The notes under the pieces are model-generated. The model had not been told where the DNA came from. It saw only the letters and a list, made by a program, of their open reading frames with translations, and made no database searches. Source: a virus. From it: a stretch of DNA of 32,189 nt. The DNA is taken from IMG/VR virus record IMGVR_UViG_3300031227_000242, positions 1 to 32,189 of that record; one strand, written 5' to 3'. The position numbers and the translations under genes are program-made. Shown here piece by piece: positions 1 through 19,379 of this stretch; the stretch's first letter is position 1; each line of letters opens with the position of its first letter.

Positions 1-65
1 ATAAGTATATAGGGTTATTGAAAGCAGAAACTACCCTATCACACAATCTAAAGGGCGATTTAACG

Positions 66-611
66 ATGTCACAGGACAAACAGGCATTACTTGAAGAAGA
101 TATTAAAGAGATACAAACAACGCTTACAGACCTTAAAAATGAGTATAAGCAGAGTGGTAACGTTGCTATGGATTTATACAAAGATGGAGAACATATTTTA
201 AAATGGGTAAATAGCAAAACTTATATTACTCCTCATTTTCAAGTATGGGAAATGCAACAAGGAGATGAATTAGAATATCTTAAAGTAGATTATAATTTGT
301 TTCTAGCAGCAGAAAAGATAAAAACCCATTTTAAAGGGGCGAAAGTTAGTATTAAAATAAGTAAAGATATTAATAGAGGGTTTAGAAGTTACTTCTGTAA
401 TTTAAAAGCAGGAGGGGTTGAAGATTCTCAACACGTTCCAGGTAAAGCAATGGATATAAGTGTTGAAGGGTATACACCTTTGACTGTATATAAATGGGTG
501 AAAGCAAATCATAAAGACTTAGGTATAGGTGGACTAGGTGTTTATCGTACCTTTGTTCATATTGATACTAGAAATAATGGCAAAACTTTAGTATCATGGG
601 ATAAACGATGA
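66..611 (+). CDS. Peptidase M15-type cell-wall peptidase (probable endolysin)
   Basis: A 181-residue protein whose C-terminal half carries the M15 (D-Ala-D-Ala carboxypeptidase/endolysin) zinc signature. SQHVPGKAMDI gives His123 and Asp130, and FVHID gives His165 and Asp167. Family knowledge says such enzymes cut peptide bonds in peptidoglycan, and in phages they serve in lysis. The N-terminal ~35 residues are charged and probably coiled-coil; no signal peptide is seen, so a holin outside the window would be needed. An upstream in-frame TTG at 18 exists, but the ATG at 66 is preceded by AAAGGGCG at good spacing and is preferred. Its stop overlaps the next small ORF and a terminator follows, which suits the last gene of a late operon. 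A tail-associated wall hydrolase is an alternative. Confidence 0.8.
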   Translation: MSQDKQALLEEDIKEIQTTLTDLKNEYKQSGNVAMDLYKDGEHILKWVNSKTYITPHFQVWEMQQGDELEYLKVDYNLFLAAEKIKTHFKGAKVSIKISKDINRGFRSYFCNLKAGGVEDSQHVPGKAMDISVEGYTPLTVYKWVKANHKDLGIGGLGVYRTFVHIDTRNNGKTLVSWDKR

Positions 612-727
612 TAAAACTGTTCTTCTACCGTATACATCTAGCAAGACTACAAGGTTTTGATTTAAGAGAAAGTTTTAATCACGCTAAAAGAGAATATAAA
701 AGAGATAAGATATTTAACAGCAAGTAA
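608..727 (+). CDS. Hypothetical 39-residue protein, translationally coupled
   Basis: A short ORF whose ATG overlaps the peptidase stop in an ATGA arrangement, implying coupled translation. The product is basic, starts with a mildly hydrophobic segment (MIKLFFYRIHLARL) and continues with a Lys/Arg-rich helix-like tail. It has no convincing transmembrane helix and I recognise no family. Its stop codon lies in the A-run that forms the base of the terminator hairpin. It could be a real lysis-module accessory protein or a chance ORF; the coupled start is the main support. Confidence 0.4.
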   Translation: MIKLFFYRIHLARLQGFDLRESFNHAKREYKRDKIFNSK

Positions 728-973
728 AAAAAGACCTATTATGGTCTTTTCTTTTTGAGTAGACAAGGATTTGTTATTCGCTACTGGGAAGATACCTGCG
801 GATGCTAGTCTTTCTAACTGCGATGACCTTAAGCATATTTGTTACTTCCAGTCATACTATCCTCTGTTTGCGATTAATGAAATATGCACATCTCCGCTCT
901 AACAGTTATATCCACCCAGTAAGGAATAACATCCTTACTAATATCAAAAGGGGTGTGAGGTTTTGTTAACCTC
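726..973 (-). ncRNA. Predicted structured phage ncRNA (~248 nt), no recognised family
   Basis: A free-standing transcription unit. A perfect consensus promoter at 980-1008 predicts a start near 973, and the hairpin at 729-756 ends it. No ORF with a ribosome binding site fits. Complementary segments account for much of the length. H1 is 957-962/968-973, right at the 5' end. H2 is 918-925/932-939, enclosed by 913-917/951-955. H3 is 833-840/880-887 (8 bp). H4 is 804-808/814-818. H5 is 798-804/889-897, with a bulge, enclosing H3 and H4. H6 pairs 845-852, in the H3 loop, with 783-791 near the 3' end, with one bulged base, which would make a pseudoknot. I compared it by memory with tmRNA, 6S, RNase P, phi29 pRNA and T-box cores and saw none of their hallmark words. 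The function is unknown. Confidence 0.7.
729..756. terminator. Bidirectional rho-independent terminator
   Basis: The 8-bp stem AAAAGACC/GGTCTTTT has a six-base loop (TATTAT). On the plus strand it is followed by C and five Ts. On the minus strand the A-run at 726-732 gives a U-tract. It therefore can end both the plus-strand lysis transcript and minus-strand transcription (early operon and the structured RNA). Confidence 0.85.
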
Positions 974-979
974 GAGATT

Positions 980-1008
980 ATTATATCAGATTATTGCCCT
1001 TTTGTCAA
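980..1008 (-). promoter_or_regulatory. Perfect sigma-70/SigA consensus promoter for the ncRNA
   Basis: Read on the minus strand: TTGACA at 1008-1003, a 17-bp spacer, and TATAAT at 985-980. Both hexamers match consensus exactly. The promoter overlaps the 3' end of the phosphoesterase gene, and no protein gene follows before the terminator. It is the closest match to consensus that I found in the window. Confidence 0.88.
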
Positions 1009-2343
1009 TACTTTATTTTCTTTCTTTGGTACAAAGTTTATATTAAACTCACTCATTGGTCCTTTTTTCTTATCATATATATATCCTGTCCATCTTGGTA
1101 TAGCACCAAAGAACCTTTGACTATAATGATAATAATCCATATACGACGGACTACTGTCTAGATGAACATTCATTCCGCCTTGTTCTGCTATCATTTTACC
1201 TTTATGGTGTAAGTGGTTTAAATGAGTATCGTGGAACATTGTAGTACCATATAAATCTCTGAATTCAGATCCAATAGACTCTAACGTTCTTTTGAGGTTA
1301 ACATCTCCGTGATGTACCCATATACCACATTGCCCGTGTTTAATATCTTGCATTTCTCTAGTATGTTTACCAAATGTAAGTTTCTTACGGTCTTCATATC
1401 TAGCTTCTAATAGTGCATACAGATAGTATGATGTTATTCTATCATGATTACCTGGAATACATCTAATTTCAATTTCATTAAAGTGTTTCTCGAGCTCCTC
1501 GATATGTTCTTTATACAAATCAACGCCTAAACGAAACATCTTCTTCCAACGAACATCATTTTGCTGTGGTGTTCCTTTTGTAGTTGTGTTATCAGGAGTA
1601 TCACTATTAAAGAAGTCACTCCCTATACACATTACAAGTTTATGACACTTTTGTAACTGTTGCTTATCAATAATTCCTTGTGTAATTGCTCTAAAGTTAG
1701 CACTAGCTATCTTACTATCATAATTGACTCCTGTGTCACCTTCCCAAGATAATTTACCCAGATGCAACTCAATAGGCACTTCTAATAACATTTTATCTTT
1801 ATCTAGCCCATTCAGTACTTTTGGTTTTGTATCAAAGGTAAATCCTTTTGGTGCGGTTTTCAGTAAGTCTTTTACTTCTAATAAGAAGTCTTTTGCATTA
1901 AACTCTGGCACTACTAATGGTTCTACTCTGTGCTTGACTGCCGTTAACGGCAACACTCCACCACCTTTAGCCTGCATTTCATAATCACTACATTGATACC
2001 AAGCAAGTTTAAAGAAGTTAGCATCGTATCCTAACGCTTTTAATAGCCATCTTGGATTGCTAGTTTCCTTTTCAGATAACTTCAATACCTTCGTATCTTC
2101 AATATTACCTTCTCCGTCAACCTTTTTAGTATGCTTAAAAGTCTTAACATCCCCTGTGATAATTCTTGGCATAACAAACTTCTTATATCTACCACGCCAC
2201 GTTTCCCAAGAGATATTTTCCTCAAACTCTTTATTAGCCTCTTCTGCTGTGCGTTTCCAGTAACCATACTCTTTTGTAGTTTTCTCTGTTTCGATTATTT
2301 GGTTTAGACGGTTAAGATGTTGCTCGTTAGTTTTGTCAAACAT
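991..2343 (-). CDS. Calcineurin-like phosphoesterase (Mre11/SbcD-like)
   Basis: 450 residues. The C-terminal half has metallophosphoesterase motifs in order: a variant first motif ELHLGK (His194), GSDFFNSD (about 241-248, the GD motif), GNHD (298-301), HHGD (344-347) and a His-rich HDTHLNHLHH (371-380). These bind two metal ions in the family. Many phage relatives are annotated as DNA repair exonucleases or metallophosphatases; the exact substrate is unknown. The first ~130 residues form a separate charged region, perhaps DNA-binding. Translation starts at an ATG after AAAAGGAG, four bases after the primase-helicase stop. It is the last gene of the minus operon, and its 3' end contains the ncRNA promoter. 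The first-motif Asp is replaced by Glu, which may affect activity. Confidence 0.78.
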   Translation of the reverse strand: MFDKTNEQHLNRLNQIIETEKTTKEYGYWKRTAEEANKEFEENISWETWRGRYKKFVMPRIITGDVKTFKHTKKVDGEGNIEDTKVLKLSEKETSNPRWLLKALGYDANFFKLAWYQCSDYEMQAKGGGVLPLTAVKHRVEPLVVPEFNAKDFLLEVKDLLKTAPKGFTFDTKPKVLNGLDKDKMLLEVPIELHLGKLSWEGDTGVNYDSKIASANFRAITQGIIDKQQLQKCHKLVMCIGSDFFNSDTPDNTTTKGTPQQNDVRWKKMFRLGVDLYKEHIEELEKHFNEIEIRCIPGNHDRITSYYLYALLEARYEDRKKLTFGKHTREMQDIKHGQCGIWVHHGDVNLKRTLESIGSEFRDLYGTTMFHDTHLNHLHHKGKMIAEQGGMNVHLDSSPSYMDYYHYSQRFFGAIPRWTGYIYDKKKGPMSEFNINFVPKKENKVLTKGQ

Positions 2344-4194: not shown

Positions 4195-5892
4195 CTACAC
4201 CATAAATGCTTCATATTTACGTTGTGCTAGTTTTATATAATGATTATAGTCAATTTTGATGTCAAACTTATCATCTAACTCATCATTATAAATCTTGAAA
4301 TGTTCAGGTAAGTCTGGGAAAGTGATATATCTCTTCTCTCCATCGACTATTTTTACCTTCTTCAATTCAGTCAGTCCGTCTACTGTGGCGAATACACGAT
4401 TTTGATTTCCGTGTTCTACCCCTTCACTATCTATTGTACCCACAAACTTGTGAGTAAGTGAACAAACTTGTTGAAAAAGGATAATGTTATCTTTGTTTTT
4501 TTCTACTGTTTCATGAAATGGTATTCCGTACACTACTTTGTCTACCACCATCTTATCAATGATAGCACACGAGTTGACATTAAAGTATGCATTAGCATAA
4601 TAATTGTTAACAAAACTTCCTTTTAATTTAAGTTTCCCATTGTCAAACTCCCCTATGTAATTATTAACATCTTTTTGGATCAAAAACTTATAATCATCAT
4701 AGTCAAGTACTAATCCTATATCTTCTTCCCATATTGTTTTAGCTTCTTGGCTCTTACCATTTTCGATAAAGAATATACCATCTGTGTTTATTTGTACAAT
4801 CTCAATTCCCCTATCATCAAATAGCTGAGCAAGGTATAAAATATATTGTTGTCCTATAAAACATACAGAAAGTTGTTTATTTATGTCATATATAGCAGAA
4901 TACTCATTACCTAAGAGTCCATATACTGTATTTAGTATTAATTTATAAGGTAACTGCTCTGCTGTCTGTCCTGCCGATTTAAGTTTTAATCTTTTATCAA
5001 GTATTTCTTTATATTTACTTGTTTTACTCCCTAAAAAGTTATGTTTTATCATAATATTAGGATACATTGAAGCTACATCAAGACATCTTATATTATTTAA
5101 TGGTTTATGTAAGAACTTATTATTTGTCGAGTGCGTACCACCTGCTCCTATGACGATATTATTGTCATAGTAATTAAAATCAAACGATTTAGTCTTACCT
5201 TTTTCATTCAATATATACCTTTGGTAACTATTATCTGATACATTGTTAAAATGTAGTTGTAAATCATGATTAAGTAATTTATTAATATCCTCATCAATAA
5301 TAGGTAAAAACAACTTATTGTTTGATTGAAAATAATTACCAGTTATGGTGGTAGTGTTCCAACGTATATTGCCACCTAACATGTTTTGAATTGCTTTCTT
5401 GGGTGTAAAATAATCAATAATCCTCATTTTATAAACATCAATAGTGGTATCTACGTCATAAGAACAATATTTAATTGTATCTTCTAGCTCATCAGGGGTT
5501 AATTTTCTATCAATGTTAAAGTCTATACTAGATTCTATAATAGATTGACCTAAATTATTCTCAACTTTCTTTAAACTTGGCTTAGATACAGATATTTGTT
5601 GAAAACAATCTAATGAATCAATCTTTGGACTAACTTTGACCTTATATCCATCATGGATAATTAAGTCATTGAAGTCTTTTATTTTTAAATAACCATATCC
5701 ATCCATAATTAAAGTAATAATCTTGTCATCATAGTAATAGTTATTATACCCTACTAGGGTGAAGGAAGTGACTATTTCATCAAGTCCTTCAAAGTCATTG
5801 TGCATTATCTTATATGTTGATTTATCTTCATTTTTAAATACAATTATCACATCTTCCTTGAATACTTCAATATCGTAGAAGAGTAAGGACAT
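4195..5892 (-). CDS. Compact family B DNA polymerase with 3'-5' exonuclease
   Basis: 565 residues. Exonuclease motifs: YDIE (6-9), GYNN (48-51) with downstream DD, and YCSYDVD (142-148). Polymerase motifs: A DVASMYPNIM (272-281), B KLILNTVYGLLGN (about 317-329) and C NTDG (369-372). Only about 35-45 residues separate motifs A and B, so the TPR1-like insertion of phi29-type protein-primed polymerases appears absent. This favours an RNA/DNA-primed enzyme working with the adjacent primase-helicase. The first Asp of motif C is Asn while the second, metal-binding Asp is kept. The start ATG follows AAGGGCG and is one base from the upstream gene's stop. It is the phage replicase; confidence in the family is high. 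Confidence 0.92.
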   Translation of the reverse strand: MSLLFYDIEVFKEDVIIVFKNEDKSTYKIMHNDFEGLDEIVTSFTLVGYNNYYYDDKIITLIMDGYGYLKIKDFNDLIIHDGYKVKVSPKIDSLDCFQQISVSKPSLKKVENNLGQSIIESSIDFNIDRKLTPDELEDTIKYCSYDVDTTIDVYKMRIIDYFTPKKAIQNMLGGNIRWNTTTITGNYFQSNNKLFLPIIDEDINKLLNHDLQLHFNNVSDNSYQRYILNEKGKTKSFDFNYYDNNIVIGAGGTHSTNNKFLHKPLNNIRCLDVASMYPNIMIKHNFLGSKTSKYKEILDKRLKLKSAGQTAEQLPYKLILNTVYGLLGNEYSAIYDINKQLSVCFIGQQYILYLAQLFDDRGIEIVQINTDGIFFIENGKSQEAKTIWEEDIGLVLDYDDYKFLIQKDVNNYIGEFDNGKLKLKGSFVNNYYANAYFNVNSCAIIDKMVVDKVVYGIPFHETVEKNKDNIILFQQVCSLTHKFVGTIDSEGVEHGNQNRVFATVDGLTELKKVKIVDGEKRYITFPDLPEHFKIYNDELDDKFDIKIDYNHYIKLAQRKYEAFMV

Positions 5893-5893
5893 A

Positions 5894-6556
5894 CTATTCG
5901 CCCTTAATTTCTATACCTTGTTTCTTTCCACCAAAGTAATTTTTGGCTTCAAACATGATCTCTTTTCCTATTAGTTTTGGTGCATTTTCCATAGTAACGC
6001 CAAATGTTCCCACAAACTTTGCAGCTTTCTTAGGTTTTTGTGTTGGAATTATAAACCAAGTGCTTGTATCCATGTCATATTTAGCCCATATAAAGTTTTG
6101 TTTGAACTTCATACCTTCATATTCTATATAAACAATGGTTCCTTTATCATCTTGTAATATGTCCGTAATAATACCTTTTTTAATTTTTCCAACTAAATCT
6201 GTTGGAATTACATCTGTTTTAGGATAACTTTTCATTGGATAGAAAGATGATTTATCATCATATACATAAACATCTACTTTTTCTCCAATTTTACTTGCTA
6301 AATCTTCAAACGCACAACCAAATACTTCTTGGCATATCTTTTCTGTAAACTCAGCCATACCTGCATCTGGTTTATATGTTCCTGATGCTTCATCATATTT
6401 AGTTTTAGATAATCTAGGTTCAAACATATTGTTTGCTTCTCTGTCTACACATAATATAACTGCATCTGTTTTAGCTTCATTCATTTCTACTTTAAATACT
6501 TCTAACTTTCTTACGTTTGTTTCTTCTACCTTTACTTCTACTTTCTTATTTTCCAT
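5894..6556 (-). CDS. Unknown replication-operon protein (possible ssDNA-binding role)
   Basis: 220 residues that I cannot place in a family. It is beta-rich by eye, with no Cys cluster or transmembrane segment, and has many aromatic and Lys residues in the middle (for example KFKQNFIWAKYDMDTSTWF near 150-170). It starts 11 bases inside the end of the DUF1351 gene and ends one base before the DNA polymerase start, so all three are surely co-translated. In many Bacillota phages this position (after a DUF1351 or recombination gene, before the polymerase) holds a single-strand DNA-binding or annealing protein. That is inference from context only. Confidence 0.7.
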   Translation of the reverse strand: MENKKVEVKVEETNVRKLEVFKVEMNEAKTDAVILCVDREANNMFEPRLSKTKYDEASGTYKPDAGMAEFTEKICQEVFGCAFEDLASKIGEKVDVYVYDDKSSFYPMKSYPKTDVIPTDLVGKIKKGIITDILQDDKGTIVYIEYEGMKFKQNFIWAKYDMDTSTWFIIPTQKPKKAAKFVGTFGVTMENAPKLIGKEIMFEAKNYFGGKKQGIEIKGE

Positions 6557-7283
6557 ATGTCATTTCTCCTTCTATTTCATATTTTATTTTCATTTCGTCT
6601 AATATCTTTAAATCACTTTTTTGAATCTTAACCAAAGCATACTCAACACTACCTGCAGTTATCTCAACAGCACTTGATTCCGCTTTCATTTCTTCTAACT
6701 TTGCGTTAATTTTGTCACGGTCACTCTTTTCTGTCAATGCTCTTGATAAATCAAGGTGTGACAAGTAGTGAACACGTATTTCATCGTCAAGATTTTCATA
6801 ATTACGCTTAATCTCGATGAGTACATTCTCTAATTCTTGTTCAATCTTATTAATTGTGTAAGTTTTATTATAATATTCCTTTTTTATTAACAATTCAGGA
6901 TCAAACTTGAACTCGATTGCTAACATTTCTATATTCTCATAGATTTTTGCGAGGATGTCATTCTTTTTAGCTGTTGCTTCGTCTATTTCAAGTGCTAATT
7001 GCACTGCCGATAGTCTACCTATCTCTGATGTTAGTGGTTCGAGTGTGTCTTTAAGTGACAAGGCTAGTGCATCGTAATCAGCCATGATTTGTTTCTTCAC
7101 ATCTATTCTCTTTGTATCTAATTCTTTGGTAAACTTCCTCATATCAACTAAAACTTTCTTAATATTATCATAATTCGTTAAGTCTGTTTCCTCTGACCTA
7201 ATGACCAATTCGTTTATTTTGACCACGAGATTATCATTTATTGTTATGTCGTTGTTGATGAGGGTTAACTCGTTTTCTTTCAT
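6546..7283 (-). CDS. DUF1351-like phage protein
   Basis: 245 residues, mostly alpha-helical and coiled-coil by eye. The N-terminus resembles DUF1351, with a conserved helical stretch around 40-70 (RKFTKELDTKRIDVKKQI). Members of this family occur in phage recombination and replication modules, but their biochemical job is not established. The ATG follows AAGGAGGAC, a strong site. The ~60 bp between it and the MBL-fold gene upstream contain no gene. The 3' end overlaps the next gene by 11 bases. Confidence 0.7.
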   Translation of the reverse strand: MKENELTLINNDITINDNLVVKINELVIRSEETDLTNYDNIKKVLVDMRKFTKELDTKRIDVKKQIMADYDALALSLKDTLEPLTSEIGRLSAVQLALEIDEATAKKNDILAKIYENIEMLAIEFKFDPELLIKKEYYNKTYTINKIEQELENVLIEIKRNYENLDDEIRVHYLSHLDLSRALTEKSDRDKINAKLEEMKAESSAVEITAGSVEYALVKIQKSDLKILDEMKIKYEIEGEMTYGK

Positions 7284-9525: not shown

Positions 9526-9878
9526 TCTTGTTCCTCCTTCTCTTTCAAATTATCTAATATAACTTTCAACAAGTAAGCGTTAGCATTGAATATCAAACCA
9601 CATAACGCTTCAACAATACCATCCCTACTTGGGAAACCCCTATGTACCATCCACCAATCCATAAAGTGTCTAAACCCTGACTTCATACACACGTCTTTAT
9701 GTTCTTTACCAAACAGCTTCCACCAATTATCACTATCTCGTAAGTTACCATCCGGCTGTACTCTATGCTTGTGCATATACTTGGCAAAAGTTTCCATTAC
9801 TAATGGATGATAAAATCCATCATAGTCTAGTTTATCATCATCATCATCTCTTGTTGCTCCTTTATCAAACTCTCTCAT
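9522..9878 (-). CDS. dATP/dGTP diphosphohydrolase N-terminal domain-like protein
   Basis: 118 residues resembling the short phage proteins annotated with the dATP/dGTP diphosphohydrolase N-terminal (DUF5664-type) domain. GATRDDDDDKLDYDGFYHPL at the N-terminus, then YMHKHR, SDNWWKLFGKEH and RHFMDWWMVHRGF, carry the conserved acidic, His and Trp positions. The suggested role is nucleotide pool hydrolysis or base modification support; activity for this short form is unproven. It starts with ATG in TAAATG, directly after the upstream stop, with AAGGGTGATGAG as ribosome binding site, and ends overlapping the beta-helix gene. Confidence 0.68.
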   Translation of the reverse strand: MREFDKGATRDDDDDKLDYDGFYHPLVMETFAKYMHKHRVQPDGNLRDSDNWWKLFGKEHKDVCMKSGFRHFMDWWMVHRGFPSRDGIVEALCGLIFNANAYLLKVILDNLKEKEEQE

Positions 9879-10067
9879 TTACTCATCACCCTTCCTATAC
9901 GGCGTTCCCTTTTGCACCACTCTACCATACTTATTCCAAGTCTTACCAGTGCTATAAAATACCCTAAACCTATTGCATCCTTCTCGTGCTAGGCGTTGTA
10001 TCTTACGATATGGGAATGTGATTTCGTTCTTAATTTGTTGACGCTTACTTTCTGATATTTTCTCCAT
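9879..10067 (-). CDS. Small basic hypothetical protein
   Basis: 62 residues, strongly basic (many Lys/Arg), no Cys, no membrane segment, and no family that I recognise. Start is an ATG after GGAGGACAACA, a strong site. It sits 14 bp after the HNH-like gene and directly before the diphosphohydrolase-like gene. The charge suggests nucleic-acid binding, but that is only inference. Confidence 0.6.
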   Translation of the reverse strand: MEKISESKRQQIKNEITFPYRKIQRLAREGCNRFRVFYSTGKTWNKYGRVVQKGTPYRKGDE

Positions 10068-10081
10068 TGTTGTCCTCCTCC

Positions 10082-10456
10082 CTAAAAGTCACCATTATAG
10101 TCTCTCCTCACTTGTAAACTTTTAGCTCTACGTGTCTTTAAATAATGTTTTGCTCTTGGATAATACTTATCAATGTCCTGTCTTATATCTGCTATTATCA
10201 AATCATCCTTAACCATTTTATATTCTTCTATCATTTCATTTAATACTTCTGTTATCAACGGGAATGCTATTTCAATCATGTTAAACTTCTTATGTCTATC
10301 ATCATATACTGATGCACCATTCTTATAGCTCTTTTCTCCACCTTCATGTTTTGATAATATATGATGATATGTCCATTTATTCTTTTGTGTTGATACTCCA
10401 CCCATCATACAAGTGTTATTATAGTTTACTACTAATCTCTTTAATGACTTCTTCAT
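10082..10456 (-). CDS. HNH-like (possibly degenerate) nuclease-fold protein
   Basis: 124 residues. The segment TYHHILSKHEGGEKSYKNG followed by DRHKKFN matches the H-H-I ... N ... H layout of HNH nucleases. Only one Cys precedes it (NNTCMMGG), so the zinc-binding CxxC pairs of many HNH proteins are missing and activity is uncertain. The C-terminus is a long basic helix. The ATG at 10456 follows AGAAAGGAC at good spacing and is preferred to an in-frame ATG at 10483, which lies within the previous coding region. It may be a phage accessory endonuclease or a domesticated relative. Confidence 0.55.
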   Translation of the reverse strand: MKKSLKRLVVNYNNTCMMGGVSTQKNKWTYHHILSKHEGGEKSYKNGASVYDDRHKKFNMIEIAFPLITEVLNEMIEEYKMVKDDLIIADIRQDIDKYYPRAKHYLKTRRAKSLQVRRDYNGDF

Positions 10457-15733: not shown

Positions 15734-15786
15734 ATCAAAATAACTTTCCAAAACTAACACTAATTATGATACATCAAAATAACTTT
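15734..15786. repeat. Pair of 14-bp direct repeats (ATCAAAATAACTTT)
   Basis: Identical 14-mers at 15734-15747 and 15773-15786, start to start 39 bp. They lie upstream of the minus promoter and are candidate binding sites for an activator or repressor. Confidence 0.65.
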
Positions 15787-15830
15787 ACCCCCCTTTCAAC
15801 AGCTAAATCACACTTTACACTCTCATCCCC

Positions 15831-16191
15831 AAAAACGTAACCAGAGCCATTATTAACTAAATGCTAACCGAACAGTTGTTCGCTTTACACTCAAATCGCC
15901 TCCAAAAACGTAACTTTGTAACCTAAACGTAACCAAAAACGTAACCACAAACATCCCATTTTTAAAGGCTATAATCGTTTCATAACCCTATGGTTACGTT
16001 TTTGAGAGTAAATATTAAAAGTATTTCTAGAGATTAACATTAATGGTTGTTTAACAAATAATCTCTTGAGAGAAAGTTTGCTGATTTTGCTTGAAAAACG
16101 TAACCACGAGGATAAAAGCCTGTGGATGTATATGTTATAAGGGTTAAGTGGTTACATTTCTTGTTACAAAAAGTTACAAAGTTACGTTTTT
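15831..16191. repeat. Iteron-like AAACGTAAC repeat cluster (candidate origin or operator)
   Basis: Seven exact copies of AAACGTAAC. Five are on the plus strand, within 15831-15842, 15904-15914, 15925-15934, 15935-15946 and 16094-16105. Two are inverted, within 15992-16003 and 16181-16191. Most extend to AAAAACGTAACC. The first two also share the preceding words CTTTACACTC and ATC-N-CC. An AT-rich stretch with an 8-bp inverted repeat (16029-16036/16069-16076) lies between copies. This layout suits an origin with iterons or a multi-operator control region. Confidence 0.75.
15869..15882. promoter_or_regulatory. LexA (SOS)-box-like site 1
   Basis: CGAACAGTTGTTCG fits the Gram-positive LexA pattern CGAAC-N4-GTTCG with both half-sites intact. 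It is within the repeat cluster, about 210 bp upstream of the minus promoter. Confidence 0.5.
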
Positions 16192-16298
16192 GCTCCAAAA
16201 CGCTAACATTCAATTTTCAAACCATTGAAACCAAAACATTAGTGTAAACCAAAATATCGATGGAGAACGGTATAGAATAAGGAAATAAACCATTGGAA

Positions 16299-16358: not shown

Positions 16359-16384
16359 ATAAATGAAAGACAAAGTTACTAAAT

Positions 16385-16465
16385 GTTGGTATGGTGTAAT
16401 CGTAGCATTTATCATTCAAATCATACAAAAATGGATAAGGATTGGGTTCAATTCCCAATATCAAC
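16385..16465 (+). pseudogene. Degenerate tRNA-like element at the start of the late operon
   Basis: Acceptor strands GTTGGTA (16385-16391) and TATCAAC (16459-16465) pair over 7 bp with one G-U. The T arm is canonical: TTGGG, loop TTCAATT, CCCAA (16442-16458). A D-arm-like GTGT/GCAT pairing with a 7-base loop is present. The anticodon stem TTATC/GATAA (16409-16413/16434-16438) encloses 20 bases instead of 7, and no CCA is encoded, so it is unlikely to decode. It may be a decayed tRNA or a processing signal. Confidence 0.55.
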
Positions 16466-16523
16466 TAATATAAGAGAAGTAATTAATGTTTTAACACATC
16501 AATATAATATCGAGGTGTTTTTT

Positions 16524-16916
16524 ATGTATAAAAGAGCAATATCATTTGGATCGTTTGAATATGTACATATAGGGCACATTACATTGTTTCAAAGAATAAA
16601 AGAGCAGTGTGAAGAATTAGTTGTATGTGTATCTGATGATGAATATATAGAAAAAACAAAAGGTCACAAACCAGTGTTTACTTTATATGAAAGAATAAAA
16701 GGATTATCTAGTATTAAAGAAATCGATTATATAACTGTTCAAAGTGTACTTTTAAATAAAGAAAGAAACATAAAGTTAATGAATCCCAATGTAATATTTG
16801 TTGGTGATGACTGGAATCCAAAAAATTATAACGGCGAAGGGTTAGGAATACCTGTTATATATTTACCTAGAACTAAAGGCGTATCGTCTACGGAGTTAAG
16901 GGAGAAGGATTTATAA
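16524..16916 (+). CDS. Glycerol-3-phosphate cytidylyltransferase-like protein (TagD family)
   Basis: 130 residues, the length of TagD/GCT. SFGSFEYVHIGH carries the HxGH nucleotidyltransferase motif (15-18), GDDW occurs near 94-97, and YLPRTKGVSSTELR is the RTEGISTT-like motif. TagD makes CDP-glycerol from CTP and glycerol-3-phosphate for teichoic acid synthesis. Here it would supply an activated alditol for the two genes that follow. The ATG at 16524 has GAGGTG upstream and matches the family's N-terminus. An in-frame start at 16383 would add 47 residues that are the translated tRNA-like element, so it is rejected. Substrate (glycerol, ribitol or another alcohol) is not fixed by the sequence. 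Confidence 0.86.
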   Translation: MYKRAISFGSFEYVHIGHITLFQRIKEQCEELVVCVSDDEYIEKTKGHKPVFTLYERIKGLSSIKEIDYITVQSVLLNKERNIKLMNPNVIFVGDDWNPKNYNGEGLGIPVIYLPRTKGVSSTELREKDL

Positions 16917-17542
16917 TGTATGGGAATCAAACAGAAGCTTTTAAAATAAAAGAATTAGAAATGGTAAAAGAGATAGAGAAAATATTACCTATGTGGGATC
17001 TATGTTTACAGTTTGGAACGTTACTTGGAGTTGTAAGAGAACAAGGATTAATTGATAGCGATACAGATATAGATATATGTTATATGAGCAAGTTTAATAC
17101 TGCTAAAGATGTAGAAGCAGAAATGAAGGTAATATATAGATTACTAATAGATAAAGGAGTAATGTATAATTATTTTACAACAGATATAGATGAAACAAAA
17201 GGTTACTGGAAAGAGATATTAGGAGAAGAATTAAAACAACCAATAATCAATCCGTTCGGACAAGCACACGTTCGTATAGGAGGTAGAGATGTAGACTTCT
17301 TTACTTCATGGATAGATCAACAAGGTAATTACTGCACTTGTCAATGGGGTTGTTTAGGTAAAGCTGAGGATATATTACCGTTTAAATCTGTAATGTTATA
17401 TAATATGGAGTTTAAAGTACCATCAAACTCTGAAAATATATTAACGTCATTATATGGAGAATGGAAGATACCAAAAGGCGAAAAATGTAAATTAATGAGA
17501 AAACCATATCTAAAGGAGTGGTTAGGTGGAAAGCAAATATAA
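16916..17542 (+). CDS. LicD-family-like nucleotidyltransferase-fold protein
   Basis: 208 residues. FGTLLGVVREQG followed by DSDTDIDICY (Asp47, 49, 51, 53) is the LicD/fukutin-like signature. LicD proteins transfer phosphocholine or similar phospho-alcohols from CDP-linked donors to teichoic acids or glycans. Coming directly after a TagD-like enzyme (TAATG overlap), it may use the CDP-alcohol made by that enzyme (inference). No membrane span. It overlaps the glycosyltransferase start by 17 bases. Confidence 0.78.
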   Translation: MYGNQTEAFKIKELEMVKEIEKILPMWDLCLQFGTLLGVVREQGLIDSDTDIDICYMSKFNTAKDVEAEMKVIYRLLIDKGVMYNYFTTDIDETKGYWKEILGEELKQPIINPFGQAHVRIGGRDVDFFTSWIDQQGNYCTCQWGCLGKAEDILPFKSVMLYNMEFKVPSNSENILTSLYGEWKIPKGEKCKLMRKPYLKEWLGGKQI

Positions 17543-19379
17543 ATATTCATTTGTAATACCTTGTTACAATGCTACTGAATCAGACTTTAGAAGATGTTTA
17601 GATTATATAAAAAACCAAACAATAGAGTCGTATGAAGTTATATGTGTGGATGATGCTAGTTTAGTAGACACACCACAGATAGCTAAAGAGTACGGGTTTA
17701 AATATATAAGACATGACGTAAATAAACATAATGGTGGTGCTAGAAATACAGGTATCAGAGCAGCCATAGGTGATTATATAATATTTTGTAATAGTGATGA
17801 TTACTTTGAGTATGACACAGTTGAACAAATCGATAAAGTCAATAATGGTGAGGATATGATTATAGTGGGTTTCTCAACCTTTGGTGAAGATAAGAGATAT
17901 GAGAAGAAAAATAGGTTTGTTCCTACAGAGGAAACAACTCCAAATATATCTAAATATAATTGGAATGGAGAGGCTATGCACGTTGTTAAGCGTCAATTCC
18001 TATTAGACAATAGCTTATTTGAATTGGAAAACGTACCAGTAGCAGATAGAGATTGGACTTTAAGATTAGAGGCGTTAAAGCCTACATATGCGTTCGTACC
18101 TGATAAAGCATTATATAATTATCAATTTGGGCATGAAGGGGCTATTATGACAGACATTATGAATGGAAATATAGTGAGCAACTTAACGAACCCCGAACAT
18201 TATGAAAAGGTAGATAAAAATATAGATTTACTTATATATGAACATTCAATCCCTCAGATAGGTGGTAATACTACCTCATTAACCAACTTTGTAAAACATA
18301 TGTATAAGAAGTTTAACATCACAGTACTATATAAAAGTTGCGATTTAAATAGATTGCAAATATTACATAAGTATGCCCGATGTATTATGTATAAAGGGCA
18401 AGACCTAGAAACAGATTTACTTATATGGAATAGTAGTTGGGGATTCTACCCTCGTACGATTAAATCCAAGAAAAAGCCAATACAAATGTTACATGCTAAT
18501 TATCAAGAAGTATATGATATGTGTGGATTTAGATATAATGAGTTTACACCTAATACAAAACACGTTGCAGTTAGTCAACATGTATCTGATGTGTTTAAAG
18601 GTATGTATAATATAGATAGTGAAGTTATGTATAATATGTTAGACCCCGATGTTAAAGTAGATAAGGTATTAAGACTAATCACTGCTACTAGGTTAACACC
18701 TAAAAAGGGTTTAGATAGAATCATAAGATTTGCAGAAGAGTTAAAAAAGAGAAATAAAAAGTATTTGTGGTTTATATATGGAAAAGGACACGATCAAGAA
18801 ACTATTAATCGTATCAGTACCATAGAAAATATAATTTTAATGCCAGTAAGTTATGATTTATCACACTATATGGCGGATGCTCATTACTTAATTCATTTGT
18901 CAGATACTGAAGGAGATCCATATTGCACAAAAGAAGCATTACAAGTAAATACACCATGTCTTACTACATCGTATCCAGCTACTTATGAGCAGATAACAGA
19001 TGGTGAGAATGGTTATATATTAGATTTTGATTTATTTGAGAACGGTACAGAGAAGCAATGGGATGCAGCCATTAAGAAGATATATACAAAGATACCAGTG
19101 TTTAAATATAAATCTAAAGATAAAGCATTAGAAAAGAAATGGGTTACTGATATATTAGGAGAACCAGTAGGAGATATAAGAGATATTGTAAATGAACCTA
19201 TAGATATGACAGAATATAAACCAATAAAGCAACCACGAAATACAAATACTAACCCTAATGTAACGTTAGTAGTACCATTAAAAACGTTTACTAAAGATGG
19301 TAGGTCTTTCCTTAAAGGTAAGCCATCATTTCTTAATAACAATGAAGTGGAGTATTTAAAAGGATTAAAATATATTTAA
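17526..19379 (+). CDS. Two-domain glycosyltransferase (GT2-like plus GT4-like)
   Basis: 617 residues. The N-terminal ~230 residues are a GT-A, family 2-type domain: YSFVIPCYNA, VDDAS (41-45), HNGGARNTG, and NSDD (89-92), which fits the metal-binding DxD position. The C-terminal part (about 240-560) is GT-B, family 4-like, with TATRLTPKKGLDRI, FIYGKGHD and HLSDTEGDPYCTKEAL (the E-x7-E-like nucleotide-binding region). It starts with GTG at 17526, preceded by AAAGGAG at good spacing. Two transferases in one chain suggest addition of two sugars in turn. Target could be host wall glycan, virion protein or DNA; the neighbours favour wall-type glycan. Confidence 0.85.
   Translation: MESKYKYSFVIPCYNATESDFRRCLDYIKNQTIESYEVICVDDASLVDTPQIAKEYGFKYIRHDVNKHNGGARNTGIRAAIGDYIIFCNSDDYFEYDTVEQIDKVNNGEDMIIVGFSTFGEDKRYEKKNRFVPTEETTPNISKYNWNGEAMHVVKRQFLLDNSLFELENVPVADRDWTLRLEALKPTYAFVPDKALYNYQFGHEGAIMTDIMNGNIVSNLTNPEHYEKVDKNIDLLIYEHSIPQIGGNTTSLTNFVKHMYKKFNITVLYKSCDLNRLQILHKYARCIMYKGQDLETDLLIWNSSWGFYPRTIKSKKKPIQMLHANYQEVYDMCGFRYNEFTPNTKHVAVSQHVSDVFKGMYNIDSEVMYNMLDPDVKVDKVLRLITATRLTPKKGLDRIIRFAEELKKRNKKYLWFIYGKGHDQETINRISTIENIILMPVSYDLSHYMADAHYLIHLSDTEGDPYCTKEALQVNTPCLTTSYPATYEQITDGENGYILDFDLFENGTEKQWDAAIKKIYTKIPVFKYKSKDKALEKKWVTDILGEPVGDIRDIVNEPIDMTEYKPIKQPRNTNTNPNVTLVVPLKTFTKDGRSFLKGKPSFLNNNEVEYLKGLKYI

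Follow-up and report, generated by a model that had tools for sequence, protein, structure and literature searches.

If a tract between two convergent phage operons encodes a structured RNA rather than a protein, then it must be asked whether that RNA recurs in other phages and what it might do. The tract considered here lies in an uncultivated tailed phage from IMG/VR (32,189 bases, 33% G+C), which was analysed over its whole length and is referred to as the window. A first-pass annotation had placed a free-standing structured RNA at the end of the early operon, convergent with the lysis genes, and the gene layout agrees: the minus-strand early operon ends with genes for DNA polymerase, primase and exonuclease, and on the plus strand an M15 endolysin gene is among the late genes, with a 39-aa ORF after it (Table 1). 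By eye, a similar small ORF follows the endolysin in L085.

The perfect consensus promoter described in that annotation is present on the minus strand at 1008-980. TTGACA-17-TATAAT is a 12/12 match with an extended -10 and the sole 12/12 site in the window; dinucleotide-shuffled windows hold a mean of 0.107 such sites, or 0.003 if TGN must precede the -10. Its placement needs one correction, in that the -35 hexamer falls within the 3' end of the exonuclease coding sequence. Transcription is predicted to start at 973, and a 6-bp hairpin (GAGGUU-AACAA-AACCUC) begins exactly there, as had been noted. The bidirectional terminator was likewise recovered as terminator-like hairpins on both strands. 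No terminator-like site was found between the exonuclease and the RNA, so early-operon read-through should also produce the RNA.

The predicted 248-nt transcript has a minimum free energy (MFE) of -83.1 kcal/mol (z -7.8), and none of 200 shuffles was as stable. Folding is strand-biased, the antisense strand giving z -3.8. The predicted shape is a hairpin at +1, then a long rod, then the terminator hairpin with its U-run. When MFE was set against GC content in 250-nt windows on both strands, this was one of the two most structured regions; the other (15770-16049) is iteron-rich, intergenic and a separate feature. The iteron-rich tract there extends over 15770-16200 (AAAAACGTAACCA and inverted copies) and is probably the replication origin, and L006 has a similar GGTAAC-rich gap after its primase (9811-10216).

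No protein is a credible alternative for the RNA interval. The earlier statement to this effect is borne out, since no ORF exceeds 55 aa and the longest, on the plus strand at 802-969, has no homologue among the compared phages; in the L189 copy of the element described below, stops break two of the three frames of the 3' arm on the strand of that ORF. The first-pass annotation had also recognised no known RNA family and proposed an Rfam search. Against Rfam 15, positions 726-973 gave no match at the gathering cut-off and, at E values up to 10, chance-level matches alone.

The 3' end of a tRNA-Leu-like RNA of L022 shares an identical 17-nt stretch with the window RNA (positions 772-756; E 0.15). 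Membership of the window RNA in that group was rejected, as it lacks the 5' strand of both the T-arm and the acceptor stem. The tRNA-Leu-like RNAs themselves occur on the plus strand of L015 (2480-2590), L004 (6582-6711) and L022 (3849-3960), in the form GAGTAG(A/T)GGCGGAA..GTAGACGC ... GTGYAAATC..CTACTCA with the anticodon arm replaced. They are missed by ARAGORN and have no Rfam gathering-level match in the same phages (L089, L093, L100). The one in L015 lies behind TTGACA-18-TATAAT, just before the exonuclease.

Table 1. Features of the RNA locus and its flanks, in window coordinates.
Feature	Position	Strand	Remarks
M15 peptidase endolysin	18..611	plus	Convergent with the RNA
39-aa ORF	608..727	plus	Between endolysin and shared terminator
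Intrinsic terminator	726..753	both	Minus hairpin 753-726, 11 pairs, U-run; plus hairpin 729-750; predicted to work both ways
248-nt RNA	726..973	minus	Predicted +1 to end of U-run; fold, no ORF, no Rfam match
Window-specific lower stem, 3' strand	754..770	minus	From the fold
Basal helix, 3' arm CAGGUAUCUUCCCAGUAGCGAAUAAC	773..798	minus	Six copies in five phages; covariation
Variable apical domain	799..904	minus	106 nt in the window; 56-142 nt in relatives
Basal helix, 5' arm GUUAUUCCUUACUGGGUGGAUAUAAC	905..930	minus	Six copies in five phages; covariation
Local hairpin AGUAAGGA-UGUUAU-UCCUUACU	918..939	minus	Competes with the basal helix
6-bp hairpin at +1	957..973	minus	None seen in relatives' copies
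Promoter elements	-35 TTGACA 1008-1003; -10 TATAAT 985-980	minus	Extended -10 (TGA precedes the -10)
Exonuclease gene (phrog_704)	991..2343	minus	Last of the early operon
A-rich stretch above the -35	1009..1045	minus	37 nt, 57% A; possible UP element

Conventional similarity searches did not recover relatives of the RNA. A BLASTN query with the region had no match in 50,697 phage records, and neither had queries with the elements later found in relatives; BLASTN and nhmmer searches in related phages returned nothing convincing, and no copy lies near the exonuclease or the endolysin in G001 (L002, L085). Exonuclease identity to the nearest relatives that came to light is 37-49%, and polymerase identity, taken over the length of the protein, reaches about 45% at most. 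A single-sequence covariance model pointed weakly (E 0.35) to L015, a phage with an exonuclease of 43% identity and two copies of the element, A at 5734-5890 and B at 5956-6064. In copy B, TTACTGGGTGGATAT and TATCTTACCAGTAG lie 78 nt apart, start to start; the same pair is 128 nt apart in the window. Arm-pattern scans of 2.9 million viral contigs added L189, L191 (to which L192 is nearly the same phage) and L232. The last was fetched by a 5' 15-mer alone, and its 3' arm is therefore an unbiased confirmation.

In total, six copies were found in five phages: the window, L015 (A and B), L189, L191 and L232, the others all being IMG/VR records as well. In a two-arm scan of 3.29 Mb, from which reverse-complement matches of the copies themselves were left out, the six copies scored at least 58, other sites at most 22.6 and reversed DNA at most 17.6. 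Three further pattern matches (L186, L187 and L190) were set aside as looking like chance on reading the sequence, and four genome_contigs matches (L193-L196) as having no paired arms. At the stringency of the pattern scans, 84,980 prokaryote genomes yielded no copy.

Only a basal helix of about 26 bp is common to all copies (GUURUUC-C-UUACUGG-GUG-GAUAU / AUAUC-UUN-CCAGURG-Y-GAAUAAC). It is laid out as GUURUUC, a C.Y mismatch, UUACUGG, a GUG/UUN internal loop, GAUAU and up to three more pairs. The arms GUURUUC..UUACUGGGUGGAUAU and UAUCUUNCCAGURG..AAUAAC are paired, with covariation. Over the six copies, 93.1% of cells are paired, against 42-56% in slid controls, and eight of the 24 pairs are changed on both sides (eleven cells), a value reached by none of 500 shuffles; this count (n=6) leaves out one inserted outer-arm base in each of L191 and L015B. 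A good part of the covariation is owed to L015A, which shares its upstream flank and outer arms with L189 and differs from it in the inner stem and apical part, all pairs being kept. The apparent invariance of the arms is inflated, because parts of them served as search patterns. Additionally, six of six copies keep the same two wobble pairs (U.G in column 9, G.U in column 18), which favours RNA over DNA, and on this strand.

Judged by sequence comparison, therefore, the phage RNA family is real and has no match to known families. The free-standing structured RNA proposed for the window, with its own strong promoter and terminator, has thus gained homologues and covariation. The six helices (H1-H6) drawn by the first-pass annotation fared unevenly: the basal helix is backed by comparison, and the apical helices are not, as no common or alignable apical sequence exists among the six copies and five of the six domains fold at z above -2 (window, z -2.2). 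Between L015A and L189 the apical sequence is swapped wholesale.

The basal helix has a competitor. Upstream of it lies AGUAAGGA, the partner of UCCUUACU within the 5' arm (-9.6 kcal/mol). Minimum-energy folds of the growing chain show this local hairpin from about nucleotide 55 to nucleotide 190; between 190 and 205, as the 3' arm appears, it is displaced. GUARGG precedes CCUUAC at a variable distance in the window, L189/L015A, L191 and L232 (the last by eye) and is absent as a partner from L015B. The partner thus occurs in four independent contexts, and a full partner is expected in 0.9% of random window 25-mers. On both grounds, the RNA likely folds by strand exchange between the local hairpin and the basal helix.

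In each of the relatives, the element reads in the same direction as the genes that flank it. The terminase genes come directly after it, or after one small ORF, in L191, L232 and L015; in L189 three genes akin to window 16383-19379 (61-74% identity) and one small ORF intervene. In the window, those three genes (nucleotidyltransferase-like, hypothetical and two-domain glycosyltransferase) separate the origin-like region from the terminase genes. In L189, L191 and L232 the 3' arm is followed, within about 25 nt, by an RBS-like sequence and a start codon. Scans next to the copies in L015, L232 and L191 revealed no strong promoter or terminator; of the phages found, the window phage is thus the only one with the free-standing form. 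At the early/late boundary of L015, the element is predicted as a long helix with few interruptions.

Other structured tracts were seen in the compared phages. In L015, further structured and apparently noncoding domains (5617-5720 and 5893-5960) adjoin both family copies, together making an RNA-rich tract of about 500 nt before the terminase genes. L004 has about 900 nt of noncoding sequence (6280-7180) before its presumed small terminase gene, with z -3.4 for 6280-6720. L090 encodes a stand-alone structured RNA on the minus strand (6975-7170; z -8.3 for 6962-7217), directly after an endolysin-like gene; it has an extended -10-like promoter and a terminator, and its tail ACTCAAAAGAAAAG resembles that of the window RNA.

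The reading that we lean towards, while regarding it as a close call, is that of a new phage RNA family with a constant stem of about 26 bp and an exchangeable apex, represented in the window phage by an early trans-acting RNA whose stem is predicted to be bound by a protein. The RNA would be an abundant early product, a 248-nt molecule in its own right. During synthesis, the local hairpin GUARGG:CCUUAC would form first, and the 3' arm would then displace it and close the basal helix. In the least certain steps, the binding site for one protein of host or phage would be the constant helix, C.Y and U.U/G.N mismatches included, and the RNA would work in trans as a regulator or decoy, while the apical part would either set specificity or be at liberty to vary. 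In the relatives, the RNA may be excised from the transcript that enters the terminase genes, or do its work inside it. Action in trans is favoured for the window RNA, since a consensus promoter and a terminator of its own mark it as a product and not a leader; a protein site is favoured because a constant helix with fixed mismatches looks like one. It is a more speculative and rather improbable extension that the family is an RNA platform, in which the protein-recognised stem would show heads swapped like cassettes, the free-standing forms would be decoys or specificity RNAs directed against host factors, and strand exchange would time the closing of the stem.

A point against action in trans is that in the relatives the element precedes genes and is not free-standing, which suits a role in cis. 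Such an element could modify the RNA polymerase from which it emerges and allow read-through of the long terminase/late operon by processive antitermination; we consider this unlikely, but it is an explanation of some weight. It fits the relatives better than the trans model does, as the element lies on the transcribed strand before the terminase block in all four, three of them with an RBS and an ORF directly behind it. Conserved mismatched stems would also suit binding to RNA polymerase. Structured RNA antiterminators (HK022 put, EAR, conAn2, canT) serve phage HK022 and Gram-positive mobile elements, with examples in the B. subtilis eps operon, pLS20 and Tn916 (PMC11658703; PMC8955417), and the relatives' element resembles them in lying in phage transcripts, before a long operon. 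In contrast, the window copy meets a strong terminator at once and then convergent genes, with nothing to read in cis, and the sequence comparison, which covered the Rfam families, gave no match. Trans action and cis antitermination could both be true of one family. As an RNase III processing or mRNA-end element, which is improbable, the RNA would split early from terminase transcripts or guard the 3' end of the early operon, and the excised piece would have no job. A long helix at the early/late boundary of L015 and at the early-operon end in the window would be expected of such an element, as would an apical domain unconstrained in sequence, but the dedicated consensus promoter, the conserved letters and mismatches and the conserved competing hairpin are left unexplained.

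The remaining explanations carry still less weight. The phi29 pRNA is a small phage RNA encoded beyond the early operon under a strong promoter, as is the window RNA, and the element is upstream of the terminase gene block in four relatives; by this analogy it might be a packaging-related RNA or packaging site. However, the window phage has an ordinary large terminase (phrog_30251/phrog_38) and not the phi29 ATPase, and no match was found to the pRNA covariance model in Rfam, making such a role very unlikely. There is a similarly small chance that the arms are read as DNA, in a palindromic mobile or recombination site of attC-like or MITE-like kind. Inverted arms do flank interiors that vary in length and sequence, with the interior swap between L189 and L015A as an example. 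Nevertheless, the arms are consistently asymmetric and the wobble pairs invariant on one strand; the ends (GTTRTTC...GAATAAC) have the reverse of the polarity of integron attC sites (RYYYAAC...GTTRRRY), and MITE interiors are conserved as a rule. Least probable of all is the first-pass suggestion that the RNA is an antisense regulator of the lysis transcript. The convergent position invites it, but the two transcripts overlap at the shared terminator only, exact complementarity elsewhere in the phage runs to 12 nt at most (mean of shuffles, 12.4), and the relatives carry the element sense to its neighbours.

Among known RNAs, 6S RNA is rod-like and similar in length; the window RNA differs in having no Rfam match and no large central bubble of the kind that mimics an open promoter. 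The known kind to which it belongs is that of phage structured RNAs of undefined function, such as ROOL and GOLLD, and what is new is a compact form with a constant stem and an exchangeable head. ROOL and GOLLD are likewise found in phages and prophages but are far larger and more elaborate: the studied ROOL RNA has 659 nt, many GOLLD RNAs exceed 800 nt, and ROOL may match 16S rRNA in abundance (PMC12286853). In the 248-nt window RNA the basal helix alone is conserved, and the ROOL and GOLLD covariance models in Rfam did not match it.

Outside tRNAs, phage RNA families with covariation support are few, and most are without an assigned function. The family described here offers a compact RNA, one phage that gives it an exact promoter and terminator, and a split between constant stem and swapped head that is unusual and testable. 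As the stem is near-invariant and can be synthesised as bait, its partner can be sought directly.
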